From Micromonospora echinospora (GTDB lineage Bacteria > Actinomycetota > Actinomycetes > Mycobacteriales > Micromonosporaceae): a DNA stretch of 64,000 nucleotides. The translations under genes were made by a program, and so were the position numbers. Where the stretch lies: positions 1,550,001 to 1,614,000 of the forward strand of contig NZ_JACHJC010000001.1 in the NCBI RefSeq assembly GCF_014203425.1, given 5' to 3'. Of this stretch, positions 635 to 5,525 are shown piece by piece (positions within the stretch are counted from its first letter, which is position 1; each line of letters opens with the position of its first letter). The notes beneath the pieces were generated by a model. The model saw only the letters and a program-made list of their open reading frames with translations. It ran no database searches and was not told where the DNA came from.

Positions 635-651
635 CTGGACCACCTCCTTTC
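635..651 (-). promoter_or_regulatory. Extended Shine-Dalgarno, complementary to the 16S rRNA 3' tail
   Basis: The plus strand reads CTGGACCACCTCCTTTC. The actinobacterial 16S rRNA 3' end is CUGGAUCACCUCCUUUC (established), so the leader RNA can form 17 consecutive pairs with it, one of them G-U. A normal ribosome site uses 4 to 8 pairs. Flanking sequence does not resemble 16S rRNA, so this is not an rDNA fragment. Confidence 0.7.
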
Positions 652-712: not shown

Positions 713-1897
713 TCAGTCCAGGCCGATCGGGCCCTCGCGTGGGCCCTCCTCGTGCGCGGGCTGCACCGCGAGCGACGGGAAGTCGGCCAGGTCGCCCTCC
801 GGCTCGGCGTCCCACTCGGGGAAGACCAGCGGGCTCTGGAGGTAGAGGCAGAGCAGCTGGGTGAGCTGGTGCAGGCCGTCCAGGTGGGTGCGCTCGTGGC
901 CGTGGGTGGCGTCGACGCCGAAGCCGAGGAGCGCCACCCGGGCGTGCGCCCCGGCCTCGACCGCGGCGGCCACATCCGAGCGGTAGTAGTCGAAGACGTC
1001 CCGGACCAGGTCGACGCCGTGTTCCTTGGCGATCGAGGCGAGGTTGCGGGTCAGGTGGTAGTCGAACGGCCCGACCCCGTCGCCCATGGCGAGCGTCGCA
1101 GCGGTCTCCCGGGACTGCTGGCCCGGCGCGACCACCGCCGCGTCGACCGAGACGATCTCCGCGACGTCCGGGTCCAGTCCGTGGCTGGCGCCGTGGCCGA
1201 TCTCCTCGGTGACGGTGACCAGCAGGTGTGCGGTGACCGCCGGGGTGACCCCGGCCTCGACCATTGCCTTGAACGCGGTCAGCACCGCCGCCACGCCCGC
1301 CTTGTCGTCCAGGTGGCGGGACTTGACGTACCCGTTCGGGGTGATGGTCGGGTTGGGCAGGAACGCCACGAAGTCCCCGGCGTCGATGCCGAGCGCCCGC
1401 AGCCCGGCCTCGTCGTGCACCGCCTCGTCCACCCGCACCTCGACCAGCTCCCAGCCGACGCCCTGGAGGTCGACCGCCTCGTTGTAGCGGTGGCCGCTCG
1501 CCTTCAGCGGCAGCACCTGGCCGGTGACGACCCGCTCCAGGTCGTCGGTGAAGATCCGCACGTGGGCGCCCTCGGCGAAGCGGGCGCTGTGCGTACCGAT
1601 CGGGTTGACCTCCAGCCGGCCGTTCTCCTTCAGCCGCTTCACCATGCCGCCGATGGTGTCGGTGTGCACCACGATCGCCCGGTCGGCGCCGGTCGACCGG
1701 GGGCCGGGCAGACAGGCGCTCAGCGCCCCGCGACGGGTCAGCGTGGAGCTGATCCCGATCGCGGAGAGCCGCTCGCCCACGTACTGCTGGATGTGGTCGG
1801 TGCGCCCCGACGGGCTGGGGATCTCCAGCAGCTCCACCAGCACCTGGCGGAGATAGTCGAGGTCGAGCTTGAGCGGTTGGGTTTTGCGTGCGGTCAT
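713..1897 (-). CDS. NAGGN-system M42 family peptidase
   Basis: A 394-residue member of the M42 glutamyl-aminopeptidase-like family found with the N-acetylglutaminylglutamine amide osmolyte genes. Visible motifs are VVHTDTIGGM near residue 72 (metal-binding H and D), HLDDKAG near 200, TVTEEIGHGA near 234 (the EE pair of M42 enzymes) and GVDATHGHERTH towards the C-terminus. The likely role is turnover or trimming of the NAGGN dipeptide or an acetylated precursor in the cytoplasm. The start ATG overlaps the upstream stop codon (ATGA), which indicates translational coupling as the last gene of the operon. Family assignment is by motif and context; the substrate is inferred. Confidence 0.85.
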   Translation of the reverse strand: MTARKTQPLKLDLDYLRQVLVELLEIPSPSGRTDHIQQYVGERLSAIGISSTLTRRGALSACLPGPRSTGADRAIVVHTDTIGGMVKRLKENGRLEVNPIGTHSARFAEGAHVRIFTDDLERVVTGQVLPLKASGHRYNEAVDLQGVGWELVEVRVDEAVHDEAGLRALGIDAGDFVAFLPNPTITPNGYVKSRHLDDKAGVAAVLTAFKAMVEAGVTPAVTAHLLVTVTEEIGHGASHGLDPDVAEIVSVDAAVVAPGQQSRETAATLAMGDGVGPFDYHLTRNLASIAKEHGVDLVRDVFDYYRSDVAAAVEAGAHARVALLGFGVDATHGHERTHLDGLHQLTQLLCLYLQSPLVFPEWDAEPEGDLADFPSLAVQPAHEEGPREGPIGLD

Positions 1898-3732
1898 GCC
1901 CCAGAGCCTGCCGCACCGGCAGGCGACCAGAGTCGCTGCGGTGCCCGGGTACCCGGGAAGAGCAGGTCGACGAAACGTTCGGCGGTCGGCTGCGGCTCGT
2001 GGTTGGCGAGTCCGGGCCGCTCGTTCGCCTCGATGAAGACGTGTTCCGGCCGGTCCGGGGCGGGGACCAGCAGGTCCAGCCCGGTGACCGGGATGTCCAG
2101 CGCCCGGCTCGCAGTGACGCACGCCTCGGCGATCGCCGGGTGCAGCTCGGCGGTCACGTCGTGGATAGTGCCGCCGGTGTGCAGATTGGCCGTCCGCCGG
2201 ACCGCCAGCACCTCGCCCTCCGGGAGCACGTCGTGCATCCGGTAGCCGGCCTCGGCCACGACCTCGCGGGTCATGTCGTCGACCGGGATGCGGGACTCGC
2301 CGCCGGTGGCGGCCGCCCGGCGGCGGCTCTGCCGCTCGATCAGCTCGGTGATGTCGTGCACGCCGTCGCCGGTGATCTGGGCCGGGCGGCGTACCGCGGC
2401 GGCGACCACCTCGTGGTCGATCACCACGACCCGCAGGTCCTCGCCCGCGCGCAGCTCCTCGATCAGCACGTCCGGGCAGAACCGGCGGGCCAGCTCGACG
2501 GCCGCGGTCAGCGCCTCCGGCGTACGCACGCCGACGGTGATCCCGTTGCCCTGCTCGCCGCGCGCCGGCTTGACCACCACCGGACCCACGTCGTTCAGGA
2601 ACGCCACGTCGTCGGGGTCGCCGGTGGCGGTGCGCCCGCGCGGCACGGACAACCCGGCCTCGGTGAGGATGCGCCGGGTCACCCGCTTGTCGTCGCAGCG
2701 GCTCATCGCCACCGCCGAGGTCAGCTCCGACAGCGACTCGCGGGTGTGGATGGTCCGGCCGCCGGTGGTCAGCTTCAGCTCACCCCAGTGCGGGTCGGTC
2801 ACCTCCACCCGGATGCCGCGGCGCATCGCCTCGTCCGCGACGATCCTCGCGTACGGGTTCAGCTCGTCGTACCCCTGCGGCACGGCGGGCAGGAACAGGC
2901 GCTCGTTGATCGGGTTCTTCCGCTTCACGCAGAGCGTGCCGGTGCGGTGGAAGCCGAGGCGTTCGTACAGCCGGATCGCGCCCGAGTTCTCGGCCAGCAC
3001 GGACAGGTCCACGAACGCCCGGCCGCGCCCGTCGAGCCGGTCGGCGAGCGCGGTGAGCAGCGCCTGCCCGGTGCCGGGCGGCGCGGTGTTGAAGTCCACG
3101 GTCAGGCACCACAGGCTGGCGCCGTTCTCCGGGTCGCCGAAGACCGCCACGTGGTCCACGCCGGTGATGGTGCCGACCACCTCACCGGTGGTGTCCTCGG
3201 CCACCAGGTGCAGGAACCGGTCCGTGCCGACGTTGTCCACCAGCACCTCGACCGGGGCGGTGACCATGCCGTTGCGCGCGTAGATCCGGTTCACCGCCTC
3301 GGCGTCGGCGGCGTCGCGTAGCGGCCGGACGGTCAGCCCGGGCACCTCGCCGCCCTCGGTGGCGGCGGGCCGCCTCTCACCGAGCGGCAGCCGGTAGGTC
3401 AGCGACGGGTCGATGAACAGCTCGTCCGGCAGCCGGGACACCAGCACGTGCGGGTCGCGCAGGTAGATGCAGATGTCCCGGGCGCCGACCGCCTCGGAGC
3501 GCAGCACGTCGGCCACGTGCACCTGGTCGTCGAACGTCTGCCCGAACACCAGCCGGCCCCAGCCGCAGTCCAGCACCACGCCCGAGGCGTCGGTGGACGC
3601 GGTCTCCGGCTGTCGCGGCTCCGGCGTACCCGGTGCGACCGGGTCACCGCCAGGGCCGATGCGTTCCCGGCGGCGCCCCAGCACCCGTTCCCGGTCGGTA
3701 CGCGCCGTTCCGGTGGCGAGGGTGTCGGTCAC
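1894..3732 (-). CDS. ngg: N-acetylglutaminylglutamine synthetase (GNAT plus ATP-grasp fusion)
   Basis: A 612-residue two-domain enzyme. After a variable N-terminus, residues about 110-280 form a GNAT acetyltransferase-like domain (a QALLTAL stretch, then LAENSGAIRLYERLGFHRTG). Residues about 290-600 form an ATP-grasp ligase (VVVKPARGEQGNGITVGV, IEELRAGEDLRVVVID, HTGGTIHDVT, FIEANERPGL). It should acetylate glutamine and join it to a second glutamine. The GTG start at 3732 lies 2 nt after the stop of the upstream amidotransferase gene. Genes in this order and of these types form the known three-gene NAGGN cluster. The first 60 residues are low-complexity and the exact start is less certain. 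Confidence 0.88.
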   Translation of the reverse strand: MTDTLATGTARTDRERVLGRRRERIGPGGDPVAPGTPEPRQPETASTDASGVVLDCGWGRLVFGQTFDDQVHVADVLRSEAVGARDICIYLRDPHVLVSRLPDELFIDPSLTYRLPLGERRPAATEGGEVPGLTVRPLRDAADAEAVNRIYARNGMVTAPVEVLVDNVGTDRFLHLVAEDTTGEVVGTITGVDHVAVFGDPENGASLWCLTVDFNTAPPGTGQALLTALADRLDGRGRAFVDLSVLAENSGAIRLYERLGFHRTGTLCVKRKNPINERLFLPAVPQGYDELNPYARIVADEAMRRGIRVEVTDPHWGELKLTTGGRTIHTRESLSELTSAVAMSRCDDKRVTRRILTEAGLSVPRGRTATGDPDDVAFLNDVGPVVVKPARGEQGNGITVGVRTPEALTAAVELARRFCPDVLIEELRAGEDLRVVVIDHEVVAAAVRRPAQITGDGVHDITELIERQSRRRAAATGGESRIPVDDMTREVVAEAGYRMHDVLPEGEVLAVRRTANLHTGGTIHDVTAELHPAIAEACVTASRALDIPVTGLDLLVPAPDRPEHVFIEANERPGLANHEPQPTAERFVDLLFPGTRAPQRLWSPAGAAGSGA

Positions 3733-3734
3733 TG

Positions 3735-5525
3735 TCAGTCGATTCCGTGGCTCTGGAGCCACATTTCCAGGAGTCCCAGTTGCCACAGCTTGTTTCCGTT
3801 CAACGGGGTCAGTTCGGCATTCGGGTCGGCGAGCAGCGCGTCGACGTAGTCGGCGCGGAACAGGTCCCGGCGGCGCGCCTCCGGCGAGGTGAGCGCGTCG
3901 CGTACCCGGTCGAGGAGCTTGCCCTCCAGGTGGGTGAGACCGGGCACCGGGAAGTAGCCCTTGGGCCGGTCGATGACCTCGTGCGGCAGGACCCGGCGAC
4001 CGATCTCCTTGAGCACGCCCTTGCCGCCCTGGGCCAGCTTCAGCTCCGGCGGGCAGCTCGCGGCCAGTTCGACGAACTCGTGGTCGAGGAACGGCACCCG
4101 GGCCTCCAGCCCGTGCGCCATGGTCATGTTGTCGACCCGCTTCACCGGGTCGTCGGTCAGCATGACCTGGGTGTCGATCCGCAGGCCGGCGTCGACGGCG
4201 GTCTGCGCGCCCGGGCGGCCCAGGTGCGCGGCCACGAACTCCCGCGCCGGGTCGCCGTCGGCCAGCCACGCCGGGTTGAGCACCCGGGCCAGTCCGGCGG
4301 CGTCGCGGTCGAAGAACGCCTTCGCGTACGTCTCGAGCGCCTGCTCCCGGTCCACCCCGGCGAGCGGCGGGTACCAGTGGTAGCCGCCCAGGATCTCGTC
4401 CGCGCCCTGACCCGACTGCACCACCTTGACGTGCCGCGCGACCTCCTGGCTGAGCAGCCAGAACGCGACGCAGTCGTGGCTGACCATGGGCTCGCTCATG
4501 GCTCCGACGGCGGCCTCCAGCGGCGGCAGCAGGTCGCCGGTGGGCACCCGGATCTGGTGGTGGTCGGTGCCGAACGTCTTCGCGACCAGGTCGGAGTAGA
4601 CGAACTCGTCGCCCTCCCGCCCGCCCACCGCGTCGAAGCCGATGGAGAACGTGGCCAGGCCGGAGCGGGCCTGCCCCTCGCCGGCCAGCAGCGCGACGAC
4701 CAGGCTGGAGTCGAGGCCGCCGGAGAGCAGCACACCCACCGGGACGTCGGCAACCATGCGGCGGCGTACGGCGGTGGTCAGCGAGTCGAGCAGCGCGTCC
4801 TGCCAGTCCCGCTCGGACCAGCCGGCCCGCTCGGCGGCGCGGCCGAACGACGGATCCCAGTACACCCGCTCCTGGCTGGAGCCGTCCGCCTCGTACACCC
4901 GGACCGTGGCCGGCGGCAGCTTGGTGACGCCGGCGAGGATGGTGCGCGGCGGCGGCACGATGCTGTGGAAGCTCAGGTAGTGGGCGAGCGCCACCCGGTC
5001 GATGGTGGTGTCGATGCCGCCACCGGCGACCAGCGCCGGCAGGGTCGAGGCGAACCGCACCACGCCGGGGCTCTCGGCCAGGTAGAGCGGCTTGATGCCG
5101 AGGCGGTCCCGGGCCAGCACCAGGCGGCCGGTGTCGCGCTCGCTGATCGCCACCGCGAACATGCCGATGAGGTGGTCGACGAAGTCGAGACCCCACTCGG
5201 CGTACGCCTTGACCACGACCTCGCTGTCTCCGGAGGAGAAGAAGCGGTGGCCCTTGGCCTGCAGCTCCGCGCGCAGCTCCCGGTAGTTGTAGATGCAGCC
5301 GTTGAACACGCCGGTGAGCCCGGCGGCCGCGTCCACGATCGGTTGGCCGCTCGCGGCGGACAAGTCGATGATCTTCAGGCGCCGGTGTCCCAGCGCGGTC
5401 GGCCCCTGCGACCAGACGCCGCTGTCGTCGGGCCCTCGGTCACTCATCGTGGCCGCCATCCGCTCCACGGCCGAGACGTCGGCGCGTGAACCGTCACGGC
5501 GGAACTCTCCCGCAAGTCCGCACAT
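3735..5525 (-). CDS. N-acetylglutaminylglutamine amidotransferase (AsnB-like)
   Basis: A 596-residue class II glutamine amidotransferase, first gene of the NAGGN operon. The start was set at the ATG giving MCGLAGEF so that the catalytic cysteine becomes the N-terminal residue after Met removal; an ATG three codons earlier would spoil this. The glutaminase domain covers residues 1-200 (MSDRGPDDSG, GVFNGCIYNY, SSGDSEVV). The synthetase domain carries the PP-loop VLLSGGLDSSL near residue 270 and GQGADEILGGY. It converts the terminal carboxylate of the acetylated dipeptide to an amide, giving the compatible solute. The nearest alternative is plain asparagine synthetase, but the two downstream genes decide the assignment. 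Confidence 0.88.
   Translation of the reverse strand: MCGLAGEFRRDGSRADVSAVERMAATMSDRGPDDSGVWSQGPTALGHRRLKIIDLSAASGQPIVDAAAGLTGVFNGCIYNYRELRAELQAKGHRFFSSGDSEVVVKAYAEWGLDFVDHLIGMFAVAISERDTGRLVLARDRLGIKPLYLAESPGVVRFASTLPALVAGGGIDTTIDRVALAHYLSFHSIVPPPRTILAGVTKLPPATVRVYEADGSSQERVYWDPSFGRAAERAGWSERDWQDALLDSLTTAVRRRMVADVPVGVLLSGGLDSSLVVALLAGEGQARSGLATFSIGFDAVGGREGDEFVYSDLVAKTFGTDHHQIRVPTGDLLPPLEAAVGAMSEPMVSHDCVAFWLLSQEVARHVKVVQSGQGADEILGGYHWYPPLAGVDREQALETYAKAFFDRDAAGLARVLNPAWLADGDPAREFVAAHLGRPGAQTAVDAGLRIDTQVMLTDDPVKRVDNMTMAHGLEARVPFLDHEFVELAASCPPELKLAQGGKGVLKEIGRRVLPHEVIDRPKGYFPVPGLTHLEGKLLDRVRDALTSPEARRRDLFRADYVDALLADPNAELTPLNGNKLWQLGLLEMWLQSHGID

Follow-up and report, generated by a model that had tools for sequence, protein, structure and literature searches.

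An extended Shine-Dalgarno sequence and a fixed 12-codon frame suggest that Ms_IGR-5, a widespread actinobacterial small RNA, is a translated device

The 17 nucleotides at positions 651 to 635 (minus strand) of a 64,000-nucleotide stretch of Micromonospora echinospora DNA (hereafter the window), which are complementary to the 3′ tail of 16S rRNA, are, as judged by sequence comparison, the start of a stand-alone, self-terminated Ms_IGR-5 RNA gene that possesses a promoter box and a terminator of its own. Ms_IGR-5 has been known since about 2013, and what is new here is a structural and coding description of this known RNA family, derived from the comparison of its loci. This widespread actinobacterial sRNA appears to be a translated device in which a ribosome site, a short frame, a helix and a pseudoknot are precisely spaced, and its function is therefore directly testable. 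The reading that we favour, which we consider to have about an even chance of being correct, is that Ms_IGR-5 is a stand-alone RNA carrying an extended Shine-Dalgarno (SD) sequence, a fixed 12-codon frame, a long-range helix (P1) and a pseudoknot, in which translation switches the fold and whose role is not specific to the neighbouring ribonuclease Z gene (rnz).

On the minus strand the stretch reads GAAAGGAGGTGGTCCAG and pairs with the 16S tail CUGGAUCACCUCCUUUC at all 17 of its bases, one of them in a G-U pair, because the 16S rRNA gene of the same genome ends in GGCTGGATCACCTCCTTTCT; the 17-nt complementarity with a single G-U pair that had been proposed in a first-pass annotation of this DNA was thus borne out against the organism's own 16S end. 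Its predicted duplex with 16S rRNA (-33.5 kcal/mol) is the most stable on both strands of the window, the runner-up reaching -23.2 kcal/mol, in a scan of 22-nt segments taken at every second base and restricted to those with a Shine-Dalgarno-like 4-mer. Throughout the 7.1-Mb genome, just the antisense of the 16S rRNA gene and this rnz-side site depart from the perfect complement at no more than one base, and a tolerance of three mismatches yields 16 sites, compared with 7 for a reversed control pattern. A chance 17-mer was ruled out by these genome-wide mismatch counts together with the duplex energies in the window. Another 17-base pairing, which makes use of G-U pairs, could form elsewhere in the genome at a site that lies within a long coding frame and resembles a chance occurrence. 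A further observation concerns the rRNA operons: this single-contig genome yielded a single exact antisense counterpart of the 16S tail, which implies a smaller number of operons than would be expected.

A search of Rfam, which the first-pass annotation had suggested, identified the region as Ms_IGR-5 (RF02471). Positions 657 to 424 of the minus strand match the whole family model (1-184 of 184) with 89.9 bits, exceeding the curated gathering score of 45, and the 16S complement sits at the 5′ end of this match. The RNA start is predicted near position 657 on the basis of a putative -10 promoter box, TAGCGT, at 669 to 664; this start, and with it the earlier claim of a nearby promoter, is supported by the presence of a TAnnnT box 17-19 nt ahead of the motif in all of the 139 loci that we compared. 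At the opposite end of the RNA, a predicted strong intrinsic terminator stem (493 to 430, with arms at 493-481 and 442-430) contains an inner hairpin with the pseudoknot loop (480 to 461) and is followed on its 3′ side by the U tract CTTTTTGC at 429 to 422. In the 10 bases past the terminator stem, the 139 loci display position-specific conservation and no plain U run, with a mean of 3.4 T in 8 bases, and the tract in the window contains more T than most of them.

Matches to RF02471 with an E-value of 0.001 or lower were detected in at least 249 of 394 genomes of the window's class and in at least 53 of 61 genomes of its family, both counts having been made with stricter filters through which weak matches are lost. 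For detailed comparison, 111 class loci were assembled from the window's own genome, the 30 best-scoring loci and 80 loci chosen across genera among the matches listed; the 30 best-scoring loci of the window's family were then added and two repeat genomes removed, giving 139 loci from 70 genera. All 141 loci had passed a motif filter that was used for orientation. As the Rfam model and this filter determined which loci were included, the conservation of the SD sequence, of GGAY and of GAGGTG is partly built in, while a start codon, a stop codon, a P1 partner and a pseudoknot partner were not demanded.

When relatives are aligned, as had been advised earlier, the complementarity to 16S rRNA proves to be kept, with a paired run of at least 15 nt in 135 of the 139 loci and of at least 16 nt in 128. 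Among the 111 class loci, at least 109 fit the tail of 16S rRNA at each of positions 1-15 and 106 do so at position 16, but just 39 at position 17, so that the full 17 nt found in the window slightly exceed the conserved part. Position 1 is G in all 111 loci and positions 2-4 are exclusively A or G, and across the larger set a purine occupies position 16 in 131 of the 139 loci and position -1, where it could pair with the final U of 16S rRNA, in 123. The predicted duplexes in the 139 loci have a median of -30.1 kcal/mol (range, -33.8 to -23.8 kcal/mol). Pairing of this length and a duplex of this strength would suit a decoy that binds the tail of 16S rRNA and thereby titrates or parks free 30S subunits, with translation being incidental. 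However, the conserved start codon, frame length and stop codon would be superfluous for a decoy, whose abundance would also need to match roughly that of the 30S subunit, and we regard this explanation as unlikely.

Another peculiarity of the motif is that position 12 is G in 106 of 111 loci, although A would fit 16S rRNA better, a preference that suits a possible GGUCC/GGAY hairpin enclosing the start codon. It might accordingly be proposed that the extension beyond the SD core is kept solely for this hairpin and that the fit to 16S rRNA is a by-product; the pairs C15-G1, C14-G2, U13-A3 and G12-Y4 could form in 137, 139, 139 and 134 of the 139 loci, respectively. Yet no double-sided standard change occurs at these pairs among the 139 loci, and positions -1, 1-4 and 16 of the motif lie outside the hairpin and nevertheless fit 16S rRNA. 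For these two reasons the hairpin was rejected as the sole cause of the extension, and we keep it among the rival explanations as a quite improbable one.

Two nucleotides (AC) beyond GAAAGGAGGTGGTCCAG, a TTG codon at position 632 opens the 12-codon frame LYSNRTREVAVR, which closes with TAG at 596-594 (632 to 594 overall, minus strand), in agreement with what the first-pass annotation had described. A start codon is found exactly 13 nt ahead of GGAY in 137 of the 139 loci (TTG in 79, ATG in 43 and GTG in 15), with ATT and CTG at this place in the remaining two, and it lies 10-12 nt 3′ of GGAGG in 137 loci. The other offsets tested, from 6 to 21 nt before GGAY, give 0-2 starts each, apart from 9 nt, with 31, and 11 nt, with 17. 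Equally fixed is the stop codon, which lies five codons past GAG in 137 of the loci (TAG in 130, TAA in 4 and TGA in 3), and both ends of the 12-codon frame are in place in 135. A frame so regularly delimited is consistent with a conventional mRNA, equipped with a very strong ribosome site, that encodes a functional peptide of 12 residues. Nevertheless, codons 2-4 differ widely in the amino acids they specify across the 139 loci (YSN, SDL, YGN, NSY and others), and the more constant residues of the peptide fall where P1 and the pseudoknot pair, which makes this alternative rather improbable in our judgment.

The frame also contains a second SD-like sequence, GAGGTGG (611 to 605, minus strand; codons 8-10), which was read from the sequence and whose GAGGTG part the locus filter required; it lies 8 nt 5′ of the stop codon, and a terminating ribosome could therefore pair with it. 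When a pattern search was extended to the phylum, 48 of 396 genomes gave a match and 2 matched the reversed control (our own count of the table); of those matched beyond the window's class, we read 15 as containing the SD-GGAC-GAGGTG block and 5 as chance-like. Five loci outside the class, two of which share the site sequence, were inspected by eye: TTG lies 16 nt before GGAC in three of them, the other two are without ATG, GTG or TTG there and possibly have ATA or ACG, and the stop position and the GGAC block are kept in all five.

Two helices, P1 and the pseudoknot, neither of which appears in the Rfam structure line, connect the frame with the 3′ half of the RNA. In P1, codons 8-11 (GGUGGCUGNC; 5′ strand GGUGGCUGUC at 609 to 600, minus strand) pair with the segment immediately 5′ of the terminator (3′ strand GACAGCCACC at 503 to 494). 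This helix was found by comparison of the loci, and for the RNA in the window the minimum-energy fold includes it as well as the terminator. Over 138 loci (one of the 139 had no anchor and was left out), 95% of P1 cells are paired, with both-sided changes at several positions, compared with at most 90.7% in 1000 row shuffles, which here and below control only partly for relatedness among the loci, and at most 60% when the strands are slid. When each genus contributes a single locus (69 loci), the proportion is 94.1% vs a shuffle maximum of 92.0%.

The pseudoknot joins GGAYN in codons 5-6 (in the window GGACU at 619 to 615, minus strand, starting at +14 from the start codon) to N′RUCC in the apical loop inside the terminator (AGUCC at 472 to 468); this loop was chosen independently of the frame, and 10 loops with weak flanking stems were retained. 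Its fifth pair covaries, being standard in 96 of the 139 loci and non-standard in 43, vs a mean of 58 and a maximum of 78 in 5000 shuffles; when a single locus per genus is used, it is standard in 48 of 70 loci and the maximum of 10000 shuffles is 45. In addition, GGAU faces AUCC in 3 of 5 loci, and GGAC does so in 4 of 134. Pair 4 taken alone shows no excess over shuffles (135 standard of 139; mean 132, maximum 136). A sixth pair lacks support, as it fits less often than in shuffles (10 of 139 vs 14). Because P1 and the pseudoknot change in pairs, conservation as a DNA site is ruled out. The earlier suggestion that conservation would account for the GKGGGPDL reading of a longer frame can be retained with regard to conservation as RNA, and its attribution to DNA has to be abandoned.

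Since a short frame precedes a terminator and both are conserved, Ms_IGR-5 might also be viewed as an amino-acid-specific transcription attenuator. Against this, codons 2-4 are variable without a recurrent codon, and the neighbouring genes are varied with no conserved downstream target, since, according to a rough frame caller, the nearest frame downstream is convergent with the RNA in 75 of 141 loci, runs in the same direction in 61 and is missing in 5. No conditional antiterminator was seen at Ms_IGR-5 loci. We have ruled out the attenuator on the grounds that the frame has no recurrent regulatory codon among the 139 loci, and its probability appears to be minimal.

The gene context likewise bears on the proposal, made in the first-pass annotation, that the 16S complement belongs to a leader that controls rnz and senses the availability of ribosomes. 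The rnz gene of the window lies outside the RNA (401 to 3, minus strand) and is truncated by the window end; its best family is NF000805, ribonuclease Z (E-value 4.9e-72, 242.8 bits), whose cut-off of 416 is missed by this partial protein. A tblastn search (E-value up to 1e-5, to about 1.5 kb downstream) located rnz after 15 of 31 Ms_IGR-5 loci of the window's family and after 3 of the 111 class loci, all three in the window's genus, and after none of the 108 loci outside the family, three of which end within 400 nt of the motif. Elsewhere the neighbours are, by eye, what we take to be YgfZ-like, PabC-like, nitrobindin-like, PdxH-like and citrate-synthase-like proteins. What speaks for an rnz-specific sensor is the short distance from the terminator stem to rnz, about 9-66 nt in 14 of the 15 family loci and 176 nt in one (with the start of rnz extrapolated from the alignment), which leaves little room for a promoter; nonetheless, rnz is within reach at 0 of 108 loci outside the family, where the RNA is still conserved. 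The gene context therefore rules out an rnz leader as the general role of the RNA, and a sensor dedicated to rnz seems very improbable. As the neighbours vary and rnz is confined to the window's family, Ms_IGR-5 is not an rnz leader by design. Within that family, the short gap in 14 of 15 loci means that read-through into rnz is possible, and the Ms_IGR-5 terminator sits where it could conceivably control this gene. On the upstream side, the genes at 713-3750 (minus strand) match those of the NAGGN osmoprotectant system, with an M42 peptidase (TIGR03106) and an N-acetylglutaminylglutamine synthetase (TIGR03103) both scoring over their cut-offs.

Under the favoured reading of Ms_IGR-5 as a translated, fold-switching RNA, ribosomes would translate the 12-codon frame, and the long SD duplex may offset the weak, mostly TTG, start codons and the long spacing while gripping the ribosome from behind. 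The front of an initiating ribosome lies at about +14 from the start codon, and the pseudoknot, which begins there, might oppose the ribosome in front. The initiating ribosome would then be held between the long SD duplex and the pseudoknot, and trapping of ribosomes on Ms_IGR-5 is plausible. Translation would open both P1 and the pseudoknot, so that the RNA would move from a closed fold to a ribosome-held open form. The output may be the fate of the RNA itself, in the form of its stability, the exposure of its 3′ half or termination, with possible read-through into rnz in the window's family. If this is true, Ms_IGR-5 would be an RNA that gauges ribosome engagement and not a metabolite or a single amino acid, and extreme SD pairing could be selected for itself.

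Ms_IGR-5 RNA has been found in the transcriptomes of M. smegmatis, S. lividans and S. avermitilis, as reported in the available sections of three studies (PMC10454040, PMC8079986 and PMC8780764). Ribosome profiling in M. abscessus and M. smegmatis revealed protected reads on MS_IGR-5, and the available part of that study also points out that ribosome reads appear on many ncRNAs (PMC4974804). In the available sections of the RF02471 literature, Ms_IGR-5 is described as an sRNA, and the frame and the 16S pairing are not mentioned there; similarly, a search of the accessible text of open-licence literature returned no account of the Ms_IGR-5 frame, its 16S pairing or its pseudoknot.

Several known systems share individual features with this RNA. 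In the S. aureus genes cvfC1 and ccpN, extended SD pairing serves weak start codons, as described in the available sections of the report (PMC13009471), and these sites resemble Ms_IGR-5 in combining long start-proximal SD pairing with weak starts. They differ in that the structure reported there has two pairs beyond the canonical SD helix and that the sites precede protein genes, whereas Ms_IGR-5 has 15-17 pairs and is self-terminated. The trp leader peptide of Sinorhizobium meliloti, peTrpL, is likewise the product of a short-frame leader and, in the portion of the literature available, has a role in trans (PMC7298713); unlike Ms_IGR-5, which has no such linked gene and whose peptide varies, its leader belongs to an amino-acid attenuator.

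The closest resemblance in design is to CC2171 (RF01867), a Caulobacter sRNA whose consensus has GAAAGGAGGUGAUCCAG near the 5′ end, a full 17-nt complement of the 16S tail. However, the window scores 13.5 against the CC2171 cut-off of 75 and thus falls short of it, and the sequence after the SD and the frame lengths differ between the two RNAs. A scan with a 21-mer from the CC2171 consensus, which itself contains a GTG 7 nt after GGAGG, yielded at least 120 alphaproteobacterial loci, whose 17-nt complementarity to the 16S tail is perfect, and in 118 of the 120 matches listed the frame that starts at this GTG has 14, 18 or 20-26 codons; the remaining two have 33 and 104 codons, and the other two reading frames give scattered lengths. 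Six of 15 such loci that were scanned reach the RF01867 cut-off and nine fall short of it, so the CC2171-type group is either wider than the family model or mixed. CC2171 therefore looks like a parallel case and not a relative of Ms_IGR-5. It is possible, though on present evidence doubtful, that Ms_IGR-5 is an RNA ribosome clamp, with the 12-codon frame as its only message, which locks an initiating ribosome between the 15-17-bp SD duplex and the pseudoknot and whose folding or survival reports the translational state of the cell, and that CC2171 represents a similar design arrived at independently; given such a parallel family in alphaproteobacteria, a general principle becomes plausible.
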